Shown one piece after another: positions 28,290 to 37,676 of a stretch of 64,000 bases of DNA. Position 1 is the stretch's first letter, and each line of letters starts with the position of its first letter. The position numbers were made by a program, and so were the translations under genes. The DNA comes from an uncultured Faecalicatena sp. (GTDB taxonomy: Bacteria; Bacillota; Clostridia; Lachnospirales; Lachnospiraceae). The stretch covers positions 62,001-126,000 of the forward strand of contig CAOKHZ010000009.1 in assembly GCA_948468385.1 (NCBI GenBank). Direction: 5' to 3'. The notes beneath the pieces were generated by a model. That model had not been told where the DNA came from. It made no database searches and saw only the letters and a list, made by a program, of their open reading frames with translations.

Positions 28290-28351
28290 ATAAATGAATT
28301 GCATTTCTGCTAAAGTATAACAGTTTTTTCTGAATTTGGCAAATGGGGATT

Positions 28352-28389
28352 GTTACAATTCAGCGCGCTAGCGCGGGCCGAATTGTAAC
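28352..28389. repeat. 38-bp palindromic element GTTACAATTC...GAATTGTAAC
   Basis: A perfect 10-bp inverted repeat (28352-28361 with 28380-28389) encloses a GC-rich core, AGCGCGCTAGCGCGGGCC. The outer GTTAC/GTAAC matches the ends of the hairpins at 812-845 and in the 101-bp repeats. No T-run follows. It is probably a REP-like extragenic palindrome. Confidence 0.6.
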
Positions 28390-28522
28390 GGGCAACCTGG
28401 GTCGTGATAAAATAAGACGAATAATGTCAAAAATGTGCTTGCGGAAAAAGGGAAAATCTTTTATATATTGAAAGAGAACGTTGTTCGGAAAAATCAGAGA
28501 TGAAAAGGAAAGGAGAATTTCG

Positions 28523-29835: not shown

Positions 29836-30603
29836 ATGGATTGGCCCTTGAATTTTATATCGGAGGAAGATTTGGTAAAATGCATGGTGGTGACGATAGA
29901 AAAATATGGCTATGACGAAGTGTTTACTAGAGAAAGAAGAAAATATTTCCATAAGGAAATATTTCGATATGTGGATAATTGTAAAGTTTCGGGAGAAGAG
30001 AAAAAGGCTAATTGGGACATGGTTTATTGGGACAAGAAAGGCGTTGTATTGCCGGATGGGGATGTCGTGCATACGGTATGCGTAGAAATAAAAAATAGTT
30101 ATGATACAATGACTCCGTCGTCAATAAGAAAAACATATATTAGAATGCAGGATCAATTATTAAAAGATGAAGATTCGGCTTGTTTTCTTGTGGAAATTGC
30201 CGCTCGGAAACAGCAAAACATAGAGTGGGGAATTGCTTTAAACGAAAAAACGCTTATATCCCATAAGAGAATAAGACGCGTGAGCCTGGATTGTTTTTAT
30301 GCCATTACGACGGGGGAGGAGTACGCCTTTCGTGTCATGTGCATGGTTCTTCCCGGCGTGATAGAAAAAGTGGTAAAGGGTGGGGGTGAAATTCACATTC
30401 CTCATGACACGGTGTTGCAACAGTTGGAGGAAATCGTTGCTTCGCCAGGGAGGAAAATGGATGACATGTCCATGGCTATTGCCATATACATGCTTGGTTT
30501 TGACTCCTATCTGGGATTTGAAAAACTGATGGAAAATGACGGAAACGAGGCGGGTAAAGAATGTCTGGACAGGATTGGGTCTTATGAAAAAAGAATGGGC
30601 TGA
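29836..30603 (+). CDS. Putative Eco47II-family restriction endonuclease, no adjacent methylase
   Basis: A 255-residue protein with a PD-(D/E)xK-like arrangement: D61 in NWDMVYWD and E84-x-K86 in VCVEIKNSYDTM. The EIKN-x-x-x-TM block and the following SS...AYLVEI-like stretch (CFLVEIAARK) resemble the Eco47II/Sau96I family, which cuts GGNCC. The ATG follows TTGGAGGGATTAGGTC. No cytosine-5 methyltransferase lies beside it. The nearest methylase, at 32488, is of the amino-methyl type and in a different operon. Base composition is more AT-rich than the metabolic genes nearby. The family assignment is from memory of motif style. Confidence 0.5.
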   Translation: MDWPLNFISEEDLVKCMVVTIEKYGYDEVFTRERRKYFHKEIFRYVDNCKVSGEEKKANWDMVYWDKKGVVLPDGDVVHTVCVEIKNSYDTMTPSSIRKTYIRMQDQLLKDEDSACFLVEIAARKQQNIEWGIALNEKTLISHKRIRRVSLDCFYAITTGEEYAFRVMCMVLPGVIEKVVKGGGEIHIPHDTVLQQLEEIVASPGRKMDDMSMAIAIYMLGFDSYLGFEKLMENDGNEAGKECLDRIGSYEKRMG

Positions 30604-30641
30604 AAATCTGGATTTGGAAAGGGATTGTTGGTGCTGCAATT

Positions 30642-30712
30642 TTGGGGAGGAACTCCTCCCCAAAGAAGATTGGCATCTGCACGCGGACGTTAGCGTCCGT
30701 GCATAGGTGCCA
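30642..30712. repeat. Two adjacent perfect palindromes
   Basis: TTGGGGAGGA-AC-TCCTCCCCAA (30642-30663) is followed by a long hairpin, TGGCATCTGCAC...GTGCATAGGTGCCA (30671-30712), whose inner stem is CGGACG-TTAG-CGTCCG. They lie between the convergent endonuclease and DUF2164 genes and may act as a bidirectional 3' structure or be an extragenic palindrome cluster. Confidence 0.55.
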
Positions 30713-30733
30713 GCACGTCTCTGTATACAGTTG

Positions 30734-30997
30734 CTAATCCTCATTTTTATATAGGGCATAATAATCGGCTTCCAAATTGTCCATCATCTGCGCGTGCCAT
30801 CTTTTGGCATCGTCCAATGCCTTGTTGTAAATCAGAGGAGACATTTTTCGTTTAAACAATTCGAGCAACTGCATTTGTTCAATCATTCCGATTTCTTCAC
30901 CTCGCTCGTCTAAGTAAAAGGCTCTGATTTCAGCCTTTAGCTTTTCTTTCTGTTTGTCGGATAATTTGACTTGTAAGATAGAATCTCTGCGTCCCAT
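30734..30997 (-). CDS. DUF2164-family protein
   Basis: An 87-residue protein from the ATG at 30997, which has AGGAGGAACTTTT in front; a longer frame upstream lacks a ribosome site. It carries the family features: LSDKQKEKLKAEIRAFYLDERGEE-type start, EIGMIEQMQLLELFK, and the YNKALDDAKRW motif. Its function is unknown in the family. It is monocistronic and convergent with the restriction endonuclease gene. Confidence 0.7.
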   Translation of the reverse strand: MGRRDSILQVKLSDKQKEKLKAEIRAFYLDERGEEIGMIEQMQLLELFKRKMSPLIYNKALDDAKRWHAQMMDNLEADYYALYKNED

Positions 30998-31190
30998 AAA
31001 AGTTCCTCCTTCATGTACTTTGACAATGGTACTTTCGGATTGCCGCATATCACTGTTGATTGTCATTGTTGCGTGTTACTGGCGAAGTCATGTAACTCGA
31101 TTTCAAATTTATATTGCACTATTTTTCTGATTTCTGAAATAAATTTGAAAATAATACTTTCCTTATTCTAATATTAATGATATACTGAGA

Positions 31191-32330
31191 ATGGATTTTT
31201 CTATTGAGGTATATGAGATGATTCCTTATACGGGAGACTATATTGAGCATGTTGATAAAACCACAAACAGTTTCAAATATTATACATTTACCCCTCATCC
31301 TCTGATGCGCGGAGATATGTATAAAATGGATGATTAACTATCCGATTTGTTGAGTAAGGCACACGGAAATGTTGGATTTTTGGAGGGACTTCTTAAATAT
31401 GCTCCTAATAAAGATACTTTTAGCGAATTGATGTTATTAAAAGAATGCATATATTCCCTGATGATTGACTATGATGGCCCCTCTTTTCAGGATGTACTTG
31501 TCAGTCGAGGGAACGATAAAGGAGATATTGCACGAATCATTAATCTTGAACTGGCTTATAAAGCAGCAATGGATAGGACTACTTCAGCCCCAGATTTAAG
31601 TGAACTTTGCGGAATTGTATTATGCGGTGATACGGATAGTAAGTCAGTTGATATTAGGGATAAGCAGATATTTTTGTTCGGTGTCAGGACGAATCTCAAA
31701 TCTTATAACCCTACAGCCCCTGATGCGGTTTTGCCAGTGTTAGCTGATATTTCTGCTTATTTACACAATGACAAAGACACTGACCCATTGATAAAAGCGG
31801 CTTTAGCTCATTACCAATTTGAAATAATACATCCATTCAAACAATACAACGGTATCGTTGGGCGGATAATAGTTCCGATGGTATTGCGTAATGTTGCTAG
31901 CGAAACATTACCGTTAATATGCTTATCCGAATACTTGCACCATAATAAGAATGAGTATTTTGACTTGCTACGAGCAACGCAGTACAGTGGCGGATATATC
32001 CGATGGATCAAGTTTTTCGTAAATGCCGTAGGTGAAGCTACGAAACGATCAGCTCAGTTACTGATGCAGTGTGAAGATATTGTGGTTAAAGATAGAAATC
32101 AATTAAAAAATATACAATTATTGTCTAAAAAAGTTTGGCTTGTATATGATTATCTTAAGCTCTTTCCTATGACTAGTATTTCCCATGTTGCAAAGCGGTT
32201 GGGATGTTCATTCAATTCAATCTTAAATGCTCTGTGTTAGTTGAGAGAAAATGGCATTGTTACTCAAAAGAGCAATAACATGAGAAATCGTGTTTGGGAG
32301 TATGCTTCACTTGTACATCTTTTATTTTAA
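31191..32330 (+). pseudogene. Fic-domain protein gene, inactivated
   Basis: One continuous reading frame from the ATG at 31191 (MDFSIEVYEMIPYTGDYI) reads through two in-frame stops, TAA near 31335 and TAG at 32238-32240, to a final TAA at 32328-32330. The Fic_N region, the Fic core and a C-terminal winged helix (SISHVAKRLGCSFNSI) are all recognisable. The catalytic motif is eroded: HPFKQYNGIVGR stands where HPFx(D/E)GNGRxxR is expected, with the acidic residue and the first arginine lost. It lies at the left end of the AT-rich block, ahead of the methylase operon. Fic enzymes transfer AMP to proteins; this one cannot. Confidence 0.8.
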
Positions 32331-32487
32331 AAAATCTATATCGGAAATTAATTATAGAGGAATTTAACATTTTGCATAATATTGTAGCAAGGGTGGTTGA
32401 ATATCGAGTCATAGGCCATTTATGTATACTTGTTTTATGGATTGTGTTAGTACTGAATATAGTAGCTAATTGTTTGAAGGGGATATT

Positions 32488-33354
32488 ATGATAATAGAGA
32501 ATACTTTTCCGAATTACAACATACAACAATGGAAAGGAACATGCCAAAATAATGAATGGACATTATTATGTGGGGATGCAGGATTAGCATTACAACAGCT
32601 GGATGATCAGAGTGTCAATTGTATCATTACATCCCCACCATACTATAATTTACGTGATTATGGAGTAAAAGGCCAAATAGGACTTGAGGAAACAGTCAAT
32701 GAATATATAAATGCTTTATCAGCAGTTATGGATCAAGCATATCGGGTTTTGAAGAAAGATGGATTACTGTTTTTAAATCTTGGAGATACTTATTATTCAG
32801 GAAAAGGTGCCTCTCATGGGAAAGATGAAAAAAGTCATAAACGACGATTTGGATTACGTCCGGTCGATAAAAGTGGTGGATTAGGCATAAATGTTTGTAG
32901 GAAGTCAATTATCGGAATTCCATGGCGTGTAGCGATAGAAATGACAACAAGGAATTGGATATTGCGTTCTCCTATTATATGGCATAGAGATAAGGCATTA
33001 CCAGAGTCAGTTAAAGACAGACCGCATCGTAGTTATGAATATATTTTTATGTTTGCAAAAGATAGAAAATATTATTTTAACCGTCAACCACTTATTGATA
33101 AGCAAATTGATGAAGATGTTTGGACTATAATTCCACGGCCTTCTGGGACAAAGATAAACACGGCTCCATATCCAGATGAATTAGTTTCACGTTGTTTGTC
33201 TATTGGCTGTCCAAATGGAGGTACAGTGTTAGACCCTTTTGTGGGAAGTGGTACGACAATGAAAGTTTCTTTAAAAAATGGTTATAATGCGATAGGTATT
33301 GACTTGAGTTATGAGTTTTGTCAATATGTAATAAAAGAGTTGGAGGACTTATAA
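32488..33354 (+). CDS. DNA amino-methyltransferase (N4-cytosine/N6-adenine, beta-type order)
   Basis: A 288-residue enzyme from the ATG at 32488, preceded by GAAGGGGATATT. Motif IV SPPYYNLRDYG is at residues 49-59 and the AdoMet motif DPFVGSGTT at 249-257, i.e. catalytic motif first. The SPPYY-x-LRDY form is common in m4C and some m6A enzymes, so the modified base is open. A central target-recognition part spans about 95-210. It is the first gene of a three-gene operon; the AAA ATPase starts two bases after its stop. It presumably marks self DNA. It belongs to the AT-rich block and has codon use (TTA, ATA, AAT) unlike the flanks. Confidence 0.85.
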   Translation: MIIENTFPNYNIQQWKGTCQNNEWTLLCGDAGLALQQLDDQSVNCIITSPPYYNLRDYGVKGQIGLEETVNEYINALSAVMDQAYRVLKKDGLLFLNLGDTYYSGKGASHGKDEKSHKRRFGLRPVDKSGGLGINVCRKSIIGIPWRVAIEMTTRNWILRSPIIWHRDKALPESVKDRPHRSYEYIFMFAKDRKYYFNRQPLIDKQIDEDVWTIIPRPSGTKINTAPYPDELVSRCLSIGCPNGGTVLDPFVGSGTTMKVSLKNGYNAIGIDLSYEFCQYVIKELEDL

Positions 33355-33356
33355 AT

Positions 33357-35216
33357 ATGTATCTGTCATTAAGTTATATATTAGCTGCTATAAAAAAACT
33401 AAATAATGTTCATCCGTTCATAGGAATTACATTCTTGTCTTGTAAACGAAACCAACTTCCAGTAGGTAAAGCTATTGAATATCCGATGGATCAAAATAAT
33501 AAAAGTTTTATGGACGAAGTTCAAAAGATAATTCCCAATTCAGCATGGTATTATCAGCCGTATAAATCTAATGCTTCTATTAAAAAATGGGTAAAAGAAG
33601 ATTATGCTTCTTCAGGTTTGCAATCAATTAATACCAGGAGTTTTCAAAAGTGTTTTATACATGAAAACAATTCCAAAATTTGGGGATGGGATGAGAACTA
33701 TATTTATGAGATTTCAACAAAAATTATAAAAGGAAAAAAAAGAATCCCATTAATTGATTTGGCGATTTGGTGTTTTAAATTTGAAGAATGGGATAATTCT
33801 TTTACTTTGGATGATATTGTACAAAAGTTTATTTCTGTATTTCAAATAACGGAACAAGAAATAGAGAGTTTGTTCACAACAAATATTAGTGGGTATCCTA
33901 ATTGTTCGGTATTTCAAGATGATGTAGTTGAAGCGTCGTTACTAGCAAGCAATTTAGTAGAGCCGCCTGATGCAAAACCAGATGAAGAGGGCACACTTTC
34001 TTTTTTAGCATTAGATAATGTAGGACCCTCTGACCATATGGAGATGAATTTGGCCTCTCGACTCAATATTATTACAGGAGATAATGGATTAGGAAAGACT
34101 TTTCTTATGGATTGTTCATGGTGGGCTTTAACGGGGACGTGGGCGTCTAATGAAGCAAGACCAAAATATAGTGGAAAGAACTCTAATATAAGGTTTTCTA
34201 TAGCTGGTAAAATGCAACATACTAAAGAAGTTTCTATAAGTTATGATATTCAAAATTTGATATGGAAAAGAAATGAAAAACAACCTACAATTCCTGGGCT
34301 TATTGTTTATGCGTGTGTTGATGGATCTTATGCAGTTTGGGATCCTTCTAAACATTATGGAGTTAATAAAAATTATATTTCTGTTTTTAGTGGTTCTGAG
34401 GTTTGGAATGGTTTAGATGGAAATATTGAAGGTCTAATACGTGATTGGGTAAAATGGCAAAATTCTCCAAAAAAATATCCTTTTAATATACTTACTAATG
34501 TATTATCTGTGTTATCACCTCCTGATATGGGAAAATTAATTCCTGGAGAGCCAATACGAATACCAGAAGATACACGAGAAATTCCTACAATTATTCATCC
34601 ATATGGCATTGTACCAATTACAAATTCATCAGCTGGAATTCGTCGTATTGTAACTTTGGCATATCTGATAGTATGGGCTTGGCATGAACACAAAATTTCA
34701 TCGCAATTCCGAAATATTAAGCCTGATTCAAGAATTGTAATAATGATTGATGAAATAGAAGCTCATTTGCATCCGAAATGGCAACGTACAATATTGCCGG
34801 CTTTAATGGAGGTTCAAAAAGTACTGTCAGAAGAATTGGAAATACAGTTTATTTTATCCACACACTCTCCATTAGTTTTAGCTTCAGCAGAATCTGTTTT
34901 TAGTCAGGAAATAGATAAATTGTTTAATATGAAGTTATCCTCATCTAGTCAAAATGCAATTTTGGAAGAAGTAGATTTTATTAAATACGGTCAAATTAAT
35001 GCTTGGTTAACTTCACCTATTTTCAATTTACGCCAAGCTCGTTCAGAAGAGGCGGAAATGGCAATTGAAGAAGCAAAGGCGTTACAATTGACTGAAAATG
35101 TAGATTATAAGTCAGTCTTTTGTACTCATAAAAAGTTATTAAACTGCTTGGCAGAAAATGATATATTTTGGCCAAGATGGATATATTTTGCCGAACAGCA
35201 CGGGGTAGAAATATGA
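33357..35216 (+). CDS. AAA ATPase with unusual N-terminal domain, methylase-linked
   Basis: A 619-residue protein, starting at the ATG just after the methylase stop. Residues 1 to about 225 form a domain before the P-loop. It has a beta-rich part (FIGITFLSCKRNQLPVGKA) and a WGWDENYIYEI stretch and is not part of ordinary PtuA proteins; a DNA-recognition role is inference. The ATPase part has Walker A GDNGLGKT (241-248), Walker B IVIMIDEIEAHLHPKW (D465, E466) and the H-loop-like FILSTHSPLVL, the layout of OLD/RloC/PtuA-type ABC ATPases. The HNH gene overlaps its stop (ATGA). It likely couples target sensing to nuclease activation. Confidence 0.8.
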   Translation: MYLSLSYILAAIKKLNNVHPFIGITFLSCKRNQLPVGKAIEYPMDQNNKSFMDEVQKIIPNSAWYYQPYKSNASIKKWVKEDYASSGLQSINTRSFQKCFIHENNSKIWGWDENYIYEISTKIIKGKKRIPLIDLAIWCFKFEEWDNSFTLDDIVQKFISVFQITEQEIESLFTTNISGYPNCSVFQDDVVEASLLASNLVEPPDAKPDEEGTLSFLALDNVGPSDHMEMNLASRLNIITGDNGLGKTFLMDCSWWALTGTWASNEARPKYSGKNSNIRFSIAGKMQHTKEVSISYDIQNLIWKRNEKQPTIPGLIVYACVDGSYAVWDPSKHYGVNKNYISVFSGSEVWNGLDGNIEGLIRDWVKWQNSPKKYPFNILTNVLSVLSPPDMGKLIPGEPIRIPEDTREIPTIIHPYGIVPITNSSAGIRRIVTLAYLIVWAWHEHKISSQFRNIKPDSRIVIMIDEIEAHLHPKWQRTILPALMEVQKVLSEELEIQFILSTHSPLVLASAESVFSQEIDKLFNMKLSSSSQNAILEEVDFIKYGQINAWLTSPIFNLRQARSEEAEMAIEEAKALQLTENVDYKSVFCTHKKLLNCLAENDIFWPRWIYFAEQHGVEI

Positions 35217-35842
35217 TACATGTTGATTTACAACCAGAGCCAAATAATTTTAATACTGATGTACGAATACCAGGGAAACGTTTTTTGGCACGGGTTCCTA
35301 ATCCATCAGGCAAACAATGGAAAAATAAGGATTATTGGAAAAAAATTTCTACAGATTTATATGTAGCTTATAACGGAATATGCGCATATACAGGATTTTG
35401 GTTTTCAAAATCAACAGCACCTGTTTCAGTTGATCATTTTTTGCCTAGAAGTAAAGAGCCTGAAAAAGCATACGAATGGAATAATTATCGGTTAACTACG
35501 CAGATTATGAATAGTTATAAGGCTGATAAACTTATTGTAGATCCTTTTGAAATACATAATGGAGATTTTATTCTTGATTTTCCAAGTTGCTTAATAAAAG
35601 CTAATCCCAATTTGCCAAGGGAAAAAGCAGATATAATTCAATCAACAATAGATATATTGAAATTAAATAGCAGCGATGATCAAGTACAAGCTAGATGTGA
35701 TATAATTATAAGTTATGTCAACGAAGAGATTAGCGAGCAATATTTAAAGAAAAGGTATCCTTTCATTGCATACGAGTTGGAGCGACAGAATCTATATGAT
35801 AAAATAAAAGAAATGGTAAGACCATTGCAAGATATTAAATAA
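35213..35842 (+). CDS. HNH endonuclease, partner of the AAA ATPase
   Basis: A 209-residue protein whose ATG at 35213 overlaps the ATPase stop. HNH features are C57-A-Y-T60, then D74-H75 in SVDHFLPRS, N90/N91 in WNNYRL and N100 in MNSYKAD. The final D110-P is as in Septu/retron-linked HNH proteins, though here the zinc knuckle has C-x-x-T instead of C-x-x-C. It probably cuts DNA (or tRNA, as in some Septu) when the ATPase is triggered. AT-rich composition ends abruptly just after its stop codon. Confidence 0.8.
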   Translation: MIHVDLQPEPNNFNTDVRIPGKRFLARVPNPSGKQWKNKDYWKKISTDLYVAYNGICAYTGFWFSKSTAPVSVDHFLPRSKEPEKAYEWNNYRLTTQIMNSYKADKLIVDPFEIHNGDFILDFPSCLIKANPNLPREKADIIQSTIDILKLNSSDDQVQARCDIIISYVNEEISEQYLKKRYPFIAYELERQNLYDKIKEMVRPLQDIK

Positions 35843-35895
35843 AAATTTGTCGTGGGCTTGACATACGGGTGTCGCGTGTCGTGGGTAACATGGTA

Positions 35896-36000
35896 TCACA
35901 ATTTCAATAATCGTTCAAGGTCAAATGATTGCCTCGCCCGATTTCTGCTGCCTAGGGCGTATGGATTTTCAATTTGACCAGTTGATGATTTCGAGATGGT
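35896..36000 (-). pseudogene. Possible remnant of a second sulfatase C-terminus
   Basis: Leftward translation gives GSRNRARQSFDLERLLKL after a GQIE segment. This resembles the sulfatase's own DGKIKYIWYPGSGREQLFDLE. Similarity at DNA level is seen around AGGTCAAAT-ATTGC (35917) versus 36389. It may be a decayed duplicate, but the stretch is short and I am not sure. Confidence 0.25.
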
Positions 36001-36066
36001 GCAGGTGATTAACGGAATCCCCGTTGTGGGAAATCGACATGCTATTGGATAAAGTTGGAAAAGAGT

Positions 36067-36103
36067 TTCCCCATGGTCCGTTGGAAGTCCAAACCATGGG
36101 GAA
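36067..36103. terminator. Hairpin terminator at the end of the sulfatase operon
   Basis: TTCCCCATGG (36067-36076) is repeated inverted at 36094-36103. On the plus strand TGTGTTTTT follows; on the minus strand ACTCTTTTCC follows. It can serve leftward (sulfatase) transcripts and block rightward read-through from the AT-rich block. Confidence 0.65.
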
Positions 36104-36113
36104 TGTGTTTTTA

Positions 36114-37676
36114 TCACCTGAGGTTGTTTTTATAATCCTTCGCGTCCGGGAAGAATGCCGGCCTGTCATAAGCAATCGGCAGATATTCCTTTCGCCGTGT
36201 CTCATATAAGGGTTGCATGTGCGGTTGAATCCGCATCGTCTTCGTGCCGGAGATGAGCCTTCCTTCTTTTACGAAGCCCTCCGGGCGGGCGGACAGCTCT
36301 TTTGCCATTCGATTCCGCCATATTTCAAGCTCCCCGTGCCGGTCGGGTTCTCTTGACAAGTCGCGCAGCTCGCCATAATCATTTTCCAGGTCAAATAATT
36401 GCTCCCTGCCGCTGCCGGGATACCAGATATATTTTATCTTGCCGTCGGTCACGTAGTGGGAACCGGGTTCGTCCATCAAATTCCCTTCGTGCTGCTGTGC
36501 TTCATATCCGCCGTAGCGCATATAATTCAAATGTACGCATTCGCCGTGAATGTATTTTCTAAGGCCGTCCGCTGCGGCTTCCTTACCGCGAAGCAGGTCG
36601 GCCAGATTTTCCCCGTCCACGCTGTCGGGAATCGGCAGTCCGGCCAGTCCTAGAATGGTGGGCATGATGTCGTGCCAGCCCACGGGTTGTTCTAAAACTT
36701 GGGCACCGCGAATGCCCGGGCCGAAGATGAGGAACGGAATATGGACTGCCCCTTGCCAGGAACGGGACTTGTGCATGCAGTAGTGGTCTCCCAGCATTTC
36801 GCCGTGGTCGGAGGTAAATATGACGTATGTGTTCGGCATCCACACCAATCGCTCCAGAATACGGCCAATTTGCACGTCCATGTGGCTGATGCAGCCATAG
36901 TATCCGGCCTGCGCCGTCCGAAGTTCCTCGCCCTGCAAATTTACATAGCAGGATGTGGTGTCACCGTTGCTTATGGGTTTCACGTCATAATCCGCAATAT
37001 ACGGCGCATCGACATGGTTACGGTCATAGTAACGATGAAAATATTCGGCCGGCGGATTGAGCGGCGTGTGCGGCTCCATGTATCCGACGAAAAGCATGAA
37101 CGGCCTGGAAGAATCCCGGGTGTCTAAAAATTCCAACGCGCGGTTCGTGGTCCACGTGGTATGGTGAAAACGTTCTTCGAGTTGGAACGGCGCGGCCACG
37201 CGGGAATTTAACGCGGTGCCGTTTGCCAGGTAGTCGTCGGCATCCCTGGGGAGCTCTTCGTGCAAATAGTGGTAAAAAAAGTCGGCATCCTTCCGGTCAC
37301 TGGTAATATCACCGGGCTTGTAATACTCAAAGCCATAGGGATGCGTGAAGGGATAGGTGTGCATGGTACGGCCGACTAACGCCGTCTGGTATCCTCCGCG
37401 TCCCATTTCCGTCGGGAGCGTCGTCTCAAGCGGGAGATAGGGGATTCCCAGATTGTCCATGACGCCGTGGTGCTCCGCCTTCTGTCCGGTCAGCAGGGAA
37501 AGCCGCTGCGGGATGCAAACGGGGCAGGTGGAATAGGCACTGGTAAATCGGGCTCCCTGATAGGCGATGCTGTCAAGGTTCGGGGTATAAAGCCCCTCCC
37601 GCCGTCCTGAAATTCCGACACAGTCGGCTCGCATCTGGTCGGTATGAATTACGATAAAGTTTGGTCTTCTGTCCAT
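36114..37676 (-). CDS. Type I sulfatase (formylglycine-dependent)
   Basis: A 520-residue arylsulfatase-family enzyme without a signal peptide. D13-Q14 (HTDQMRAD) supplies metal ligands. The CxPxR signature is CIPQR with C54 as the formylglycine precursor. Further metal-site residues lie in YVIFTSDHGEMLGDHY. It removes sulfate from small sulfated sugars. It follows the ABC transporter genes in the same direction, with an 18-bp hairpin in the gap, so it may desulfate the imported sugar. No formylglycine-generating or anaerobic maturase gene is seen in the window; a trans-acting one is needed. Confidence 0.88.
   Translation of the reverse strand: MDRRPNFIVIHTDQMRADCVGISGRREGLYTPNLDSIAYQGARFTSAYSTCPVCIPQRLSLLTGQKAEHHGVMDNLGIPYLPLETTLPTEMGRGGYQTALVGRTMHTYPFTHPYGFEYYKPGDITSDRKDADFFYHYLHEELPRDADDYLANGTALNSRVAAPFQLEERFHHTTWTTNRALEFLDTRDSSRPFMLFVGYMEPHTPLNPPAEYFHRYYDRNHVDAPYIADYDVKPISNGDTTSCYVNLQGEELRTAQAGYYGCISHMDVQIGRILERLVWMPNTYVIFTSDHGEMLGDHYCMHKSRSWQGAVHIPFLIFGPGIRGAQVLEQPVGWHDIMPTILGLAGLPIPDSVDGENLADLLRGKEAAADGLRKYIHGECVHLNYMRYGGYEAQQHEGNLMDEPGSHYVTDGKIKYIWYPGSGREQLFDLENDYGELRDLSREPDRHGELEIWRNRMAKELSARPEGFVKEGRLISGTKTMRIQPHMQPLYETRRKEYLPIAYDRPAFFPDAKDYKNNLR

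Follow-up and report, generated by a model that had tools for sequence, protein, structure and literature searches.

A DNA methyltransferase linked to a Septu type I ATPase–nuclease pair in Faecalicatena: a candidate restriction-modification-like variant

The DNA analysed here is a window of 64,000 nucleotides from an uncultured Faecalicatena sp. (contig CAOKHZ010000009.1, positions 62,001 to 126,000), in which positions 32488–35842 encode a DNA methyltransferase (methylase), a PtuA-type ATPase with an extra N-terminal domain and a PtuB-like HNH nuclease. The trio is proposed to be a variant of the Septu defence system that works like a restriction-modification (R-M) system, a reading to which a probability of about 0.5 is given. 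The methylase would place a mark, probably N4-methylcytosine, at a specific site of the host genome, and the N-terminal domain of PtuA would read that site when it is unmethylated. An oligomer of the PtuA ATPase would then license or deliver the PtuB HNH nuclease, which would cut invading DNA, or tRNA as reported for some PtuAB pairs, while methylation would protect the host DNA; a phage phenotype may follow from this. What was observed directly is the presence of the genes, the order in which they stand, their recurrence and joint inheritance, and the homology of both the methylase and the N-terminal domain to those of McrBC-type methylase operons. No description linking such a methylase to Septu was found in the literature consulted; the PtuA–PtuB pair was already known and the N-terminal domain already lies inside a PADLOC model.

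The methylase, long-form PtuA and PtuB genes

All three genes lie on the forward strand. The open reading frames (ORFs) and their translations placed the methylase gene at 32488–33354 (ATG at 32488, stop at 33354; 288 amino acids), the ATPase gene at 33357–35216 (ATG at 33357, stop at 35216; 619 amino acids) and the nuclease gene at 35213–35842 (ATG at 35213, stop at 35842; 209 amino acids), bearing out the tight coupling described in the original prediction. The methylase and ATPase genes are separated by two bases, the ATPase and HNH genes share an ATGA overlap, and a GGAGG inside the end of the methylase gene lies ahead of the ATPase start. The GC content is 32–37% across 31–36 kb, compared with mostly 43–57% elsewhere in the window, in agreement with the AT-rich block noted earlier. 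Chance clustering of the three genes was rejected, because full-length open frames and a conserved gene order recur in other phyla.

The methylase contains the motif TSPPY first and DPFVGSGTT last, and matched Pfam N6_N4_Mtase with an expectation value (E) of 1.6e-42 and the PADLOC model MTase_II (PDLC03387) with an E of 6.3e-81, consistent with the SPPYY-type enzyme originally described. A sequence search of the PDB gave 11 matches, of which the best was 2zie, a putative modification methylase (5e-17), followed by 8s9n, a DNA cytosine-N4 methyltransferase (1.1e-12), with adenine methylases giving weaker matches. As a rule an SPPY motif denotes N4-cytosine methylation, and the predicted product of the methylase is N4-methylcytosine.

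The ATPase matched the PADLOC PtuA model PDLC00270 over all residues 1–619 (E 4.1e-244) and Pfam AAA_21 (E 2.9e-16). The P-loop GDNGLGKT (residues 241–248) and the DE pair (465–466) were invariant in 10 of 10 aligned relatives, so the Walker motifs are intact as had been stated. The P-loop is preceded by 240 residues, not the approximately 225 first counted, and about 210 of these form the extra N-terminal domain (N-domain, approximately residues 1–211; 33357–33989, forward strand), which is homologous to the N-domains of McrB-like proteins and is the proposed site reader. The domain was thus real, and most PtuA models lack it, but its reported absence from PtuA did not hold for the long PADLOC model PDLC00270, which includes it; PtuA proteins with this domain are called long forms here. 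An AlphaFold2 model of the full-length ATPase gave a mean predicted local distance difference test (pLDDT) score of 84.6 and a predicted template-modelling (pTM) score of 0.65. When this model was compared with the PDB using Foldseek, ranks 1–49 were all Septu or retron PtuA complex entries, with template-modelling scores by query of 0.31–0.39. The N-domain modelled alone gave a pLDDT of 86.9 and a pTM of 0.86.

The HNH protein matched the PADLOC PtuB model PDLC00348 over residues 1–196 (E 2.9e-65) and had no Pfam match. Residues D74, H75, N91 and N100 were invariant in nine of nine relatives, upholding the assignment as an HNH nuclease. Because of the matches to PDLC00270 and PDLC00348 the pair is assigned by PADLOC to Septu type I (PtuA1, PtuB1): a PtuA-family ATPase stands next to a PtuB-family HNH protein, their genes overlap, the active-site motifs are present, and the closest PDB matches of the ATPase model are PtuA complexes. 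The original prediction had treated the ATPase and nuclease as part of a system without a name, which the Septu matches of both proteins contradict. The trio differs from Septu type I in the linked methylase and in the N-domain of about 210 amino acids.

Related methylases and N-terminal domains in McrBC-type operons

Relatives of the methylase were found in 79 plasmid records, seven of which were viewed. Downstream of each of the four most identical plasmid methylases (45.7–47.7%) lay an AAA_5 McrB-like gene and then a further gene, whose product was assigned to Pfam McrBC in three of the four operons. The other three viewed (approximately 40% identity) had no McrBC-type setting, their neighbours being a gene annotated Cfr9I, a hypothetical gene, and helix-turn-helix (HTH) and DUF721 genes. 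The 40%-identical methylase beside the gene annotated Cfr9I was considered as a source for the recognition site and rejected as too distant for transfer. Two viral contigs, L026 and L027, encode a methylase of the family, an AAA_5 protein and a third, weakly McrC-like protein; the third protein of L026 gave a sub-threshold Pfam McrBC match (0.028) and that of L140 gave none.

In the McrB-like protein of L026, the N-terminal portion matched the window N-domain with 86.5 bits (E 1.1e-25, with a model excluding L026) and matched PDLC00270 over residues 3–180 (5.7e-22). Because L026 was used in building the McrB-like and McrC-like models, its own scores with these are not counted as evidence. Alignment of L140 and L027 with the N-domain profile using hhalign gave a probability of 95.3 and an E of 2.3e-8 over 166 columns, compared with probabilities of 0.5 and 0.1 for two unrelated control alignments. 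The McrB-like proteins on other plasmids align to L140 mainly from residue 254 onward, and the N-domains therefore appear to change while the motor stays. No plasmid matches were found by tblastn with three N-domains, IMG/VR scans with the N-domain and with the L026 McrB-like protein returned no contigs beyond those already known, and phage records contained no relatives of the ATPase at an E of 1e-10. A solitary methylase that groups with the McrBC-linked ones was also seen in viral contig L028 (4989–5807), near a primase-like gene recognised by eye, where it possibly gives self-protection against such systems.

From these operons we infer that the methylase and N-domain form a writer–reader specificity module serving two engines, and the window would therefore encode an R-M-like Septu. 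The shared methylase family and homologous N-domain support the Septu-like R-M hybrid of the original prediction, while the joint function stays at the level of a proposal.

The arrangement resembles that of LlaJI, an McrBC-like system with its own methylases, in which the McrB-like R1 protein is the sole specificity subunit (PMC1459862; papers are cited throughout from portions of their text) and the unmodified site is recognised via a B3 domain (PMC12707154). In both a methylase is combined with an NTPase that holds, or in the window may hold, the specificity and with a separate nuclease, and the methylase family and N-domain of the window are homologous to those of the McrBC-type operons found here. 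The linked methylase lies in the same operon, but the trio has neither an McrB-type NTPase nor an McrC-type nuclease, its engine being a PtuA ATPase and HNH protein where LlaJI uses an McrB-type NTPase and a PD-(D/E)XK nuclease. LlaJI also has two 5-methylcytosine methylases instead of one amino-methylase. The parallel is one of architecture and not of shared fold, because the window N-domain gave no B3-type fold match. Recognition parts are exchanged within the McrBC family, according to a review (PMC12707154).

Distribution and inheritance of the linked methylase

Long-form PtuA was seldom found in the genome samples, and every sample counts its own centre genome; many of the genomes were metagenome-assembled genomes (MAGs). 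Among 397 genomes from the family to which the window belongs it occurred once (E 1e-30). At an E of 1e-40 it was present in 2 of 398 genomes of the window's phylum (short forms in two more), in one of the three genomes from the order containing G439, in 2 of 345 from the order containing G401, where one copy was broken, in 1 of 276 in the phylum of the spirochaete G397 (plus one short form), 6 of 247 in the phylum of the Acidobacteriota MAG G406 and 6 of 291 in the phylum of the Anabaena MAG G405, where any form of PtuA was found in 13 of 291. Scanning genome contigs turned up 10 loci, of which one had a broken ATPase, and IMG/VR gave eight loci, three of them long forms.

An adjacent upstream methylase in the same direction was found at 12 of the 24 full-length long-form loci (that of L007 being cut by the contig end), in Bacillota, in the phyla of the Acidobacteriota and Anabaena MAGs and in two IMG/VR contigs; L013 and L104, with broken ATPases, stand outside the 24. 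Downstream PtuB was whole in nine of these 12, cut by the contig end in two (L012, L101) and beyond the contig in one (L019). The 22 short-form loci, among which L022 and L117 are counted and L022 and L023 seem to be duplicates of a single element, had no adjacent methylase, and one of them had a distant methylase homologue 3.8 kb away on the opposite strand. At one short-form locus, on a cyanobacterial plasmid (L014:4413–7847), PtuAB follows a SLOG-family gene, a possible different partner.

A tree of the PtuA core, from which L022 and L117 were left out, separated the 24 long forms from 20 short forms with support of 100/99, with long branches for L019, L017 and L012. The methylase-bearing rows include the long-branched L019 as well as L101–L103 and L012, and one gain followed by several losses of the methylase is therefore a simple reading; the core tree alone is compatible with gain or loss. 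In the methylase tree, which included 14 hand-picked loci of the 36 viral loci L026–L061 (12 as viral rows, L026 and L027 as McrBC-linked), the 13 PtuA-linked methylases, that of L104 among them, formed one clade with support of 98/95. Pairwise distances of the methylase were correlated with those of the N-domain (r 0.86, 11 loci), the ATPase core (r 0.94, 11 loci) and PtuB (r 0.90, 9 loci), with permutation p values of 0.0001–0.0002; L101, a near-copy of L102, and L104, which is partial, were excluded. The correlated distances reflect shared history and not contact, and no independent-trial p value is given because the methylase and the long form co-occur on single-origin clades. The clade, the correlated divergence and the recurring order together uphold the trio as a recurrent, co-inherited unit. 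They also bear on the view, considered improbable, that the methylase is a hitchhiking solitary enzyme beside an ordinary Septu pair: such a view would accommodate the many loci where it is missing and the related solitary methylase of L028, but adjacency conserved across phyla, a single clade, correlated divergence and the persistence of remnants at the site argue against it.

Several observations weigh against the R-M-like reading. The strongest, directed at a strict R-M model, is that nine loci have full-length PtuA and PtuB with the methylase decayed or absent, because loss of the methylase should make a strict restriction enzyme harmful to its host. The methylase was absent at nine of the 24 long-form loci and present only as a remnant at two (L008, L009), while L011, with only 143 bases upstream, was not judged; all 11 loci with an absent or remnant methylase had a full-length PtuA, and nine had a full-length PtuB (partial in L020 and L096). 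A close intact methylase elsewhere in the genome was found in none of four spirochaete genomes, and in seven other methylase-less genomes the best homologue was none in two, 63–85 bits in three and 204–227 bits in two, compared with 420–451 bits for the linked methylases. The neighbourhood survey thus supported a linked unit in which the methylase is not obligatory. The N-domain gave no match in a PDB fold search (best E 2.0), no credible Pfam match and no usable PDB sequence match, and its homology to McrB-like N-domains was weaker in L138, L139 and L141 (probability 72, 82 columns). The substrates of PtuAB also vary, retron-Eco7 being reported to degrade tRNA-Tyr. Besides the B3 domain of LlaJI, the reader domains known from McrB proteins belong to the SRA, YTH or EVE types, and several of these read modified DNA (PMC12707154).

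In another reading the N-domain recognises the methylated site and the methylase activates PtuAB or controls operon expression, giving no protection. The N-terminal domain of Escherichia coli McrB does read methylated DNA (PMC1459862, PMC12707154), but a resident methylase would make the host's own genome a target, and the McrBC-type operons that carry a methylase of their own are similar to LlaJI, which is active on the unmodified site (PMC1459862, PMC12707154); the reading is considered very unlikely.

The N-domain was found to be hypervariable in one lineage, represented by six cyanobacterial-type long-form copies from four genomes of the phylum, the Anabaena MAG and an IMG/VR contig (L094–L097, L011, L020). 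No methylase was seen with these copies, the best homologue in the genome of L011 scoring 70 bits. Their ATPase cores are 96–98% identical, and nonsynonymous divergence (dN) was 0.154 for the N-domain compared with 0.0145 for the core. Synonymous divergence (dS) was 0.32 and 0.096, respectively, and the raised value of the N-domain suggests exchange of N-domain alleles in this lineage. The ratio of N-domain to core protein distance was 3.5–14 in 14 of 15 pairs; the remaining pair, L020 and L096, had a ratio of 1.0 and an N-domain allele common to both. The PtuB proteins of these copies, partial in L020 and L096, showed protein distances of 11–36%, independent of the N-domain alleles. Among methylase-bearing pairs the ratio was 1.0–1.9 in 13 of 13 (of 66 pairs, those with a core distance below 0.36), mostly at larger core distances, and the two other methylase-less pairs listed, one from spirochaetes and one from the Acidobacteriota phylum, gave 1.0 and 2.0.

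Such hypervariability fits a recognition domain freed by loss of the methylase, or a sensor of something else. Under the latter explanation the trio would be a Septu whose N-domain senses another fast-changing feature of the invader, such as a phage protein or structure, with the methylase a losable accessory that damps self-activation or regulates the operon. Long-form PtuAB persists without methylase in several lineages and the cyanobacterial-type N-domains diverge far ahead of their cores, as this would predict, but the pairing of N-domain and methylase family is seen again with another engine, that of McrBC type, and in methylase-bearing pairs the N-domain keeps in step with the core; the explanation is judged unlikely, though it carries appreciable weight. 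The R-M-like reading may be extended, tentatively and at somewhat less than even odds, to a portable writer–reader module that moved between the unrelated engines McrBC and PtuAB, making PtuAB a methylation-sensitive restriction enzyme, and whose N-domain can become hypervariable after methylase loss, swapping alleles on a constant engine.

Genomic setting, related systems and implications

The left neighbour of the trio is a decayed SoFic-type Fic gene (31347–32240, forward strand; PADLOC PDLC03963, 3.3e-48), whose reading is interrupted by in-frame stop codons when set against an intact copy of 372 amino acids (L155) in a same-genus genome, as originally described. In the same-genus genome G1955 the stretch 30631–36024 is missing and the flanks are contiguous: a match to window positions 29944–30630 (80% identical) runs directly into a match to 36025–36420 (97% identical), indicating either an insertion in the window or a deletion in G1955, an assembly of 500 contigs with a completeness of 74%. 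In G1958 and G1960 a Fic gene, split in G1960, precedes a RhuM-type gene at the place that the trio occupies in the window, the RhuM assignment being made by Pfam on the G1960 copy. In G1960 (L156) the Fic match ends at window position 32313, RhuM comes next, and a 50-base match (86%) resumes at 35824–35873; the correspondence of window stretch 32324–35823 to this RhuM-family gene is suggestive only. By these comparisons the trio lies at a variable cassette position, which supports the mobile defence cassette that was proposed.

Further to the left, an Eco47II-type restriction endonuclease gene (29836–30603, forward strand; PF09553, 3.4e-40) lacks a cognate methylase among the nearby ORFs that were searched and is kept beside a DUF2164 gene in the same-genus G1962. 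A repeat of approximately 45 bp at about 28350–28395 recurs elsewhere in this genome and most of all in G1962; some copies match both strands at one place, and it looks like a dispersed palindromic element. At another locus, in a spirochaete MAG (L009:470–3853), the methylase remnant lies just after an ORF of 1128 amino acids that by eye resembles a type IIG R-M enzyme.

The methylation-associated defence system (MADS) likewise combines a methylase with an AAA ATPase, but was rejected since the window ATPase scored 22.3 bits against the MAD3 ATPase model NF047739, where the cut-off is 420; the NCBIfam restrict_AAA model also scored far below its cut-off. Retron models were rejected as well, the NCBIfam retron PtuA and PtuB models giving 77 bits (cut-off 500) and 42 bits (cut-off 150). 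In retron I-A, or Septu type II, PtuA and PtuB serve as effectors, but in the window a methylase and not a reverse transcriptase lies upstream of ptuA, and no reverse transcriptase was present among the six ORFs around the trio searched against families. The Septu associates named in the consulted portion of the PADLOC 2021 paper are a reverse transcriptase and the Hma set (helicase, 5-methylcytosine methyltransferase, ATPase); the amino-methylase of the window is not among them, and that portion does not comment on the PtuA N-domain contained in the PADLOC model. No description of a methylase-linked Septu was found in the portions consulted of the open PMC literature, which covered retron-Eco7, Septu EcB88, LlaJI and the defences of the Bacillus cereus group as well as a 2026 review and a review of restriction, a scope beyond which most subscription papers and preprints lie.

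The reported substrates of Septu are nicked DNA and tRNA-Tyr and the reported retron trigger is loss of multicopy single-stranded DNA (msDNA), no sequence-specific trigger for Septu being given in the portions of the Septu and retron literature examined. If the R-M-like reading is true, the ATPase–HNH engine would join the restriction engines, and the exchange of recognition parts reviewed within the McrBC family would reach an unrelated engine (PMC12707154). This branch of Septu would gain a directly testable trigger, an unmethylated motif, which could explain how a Septu engine distinguishes foreign DNA from its own.

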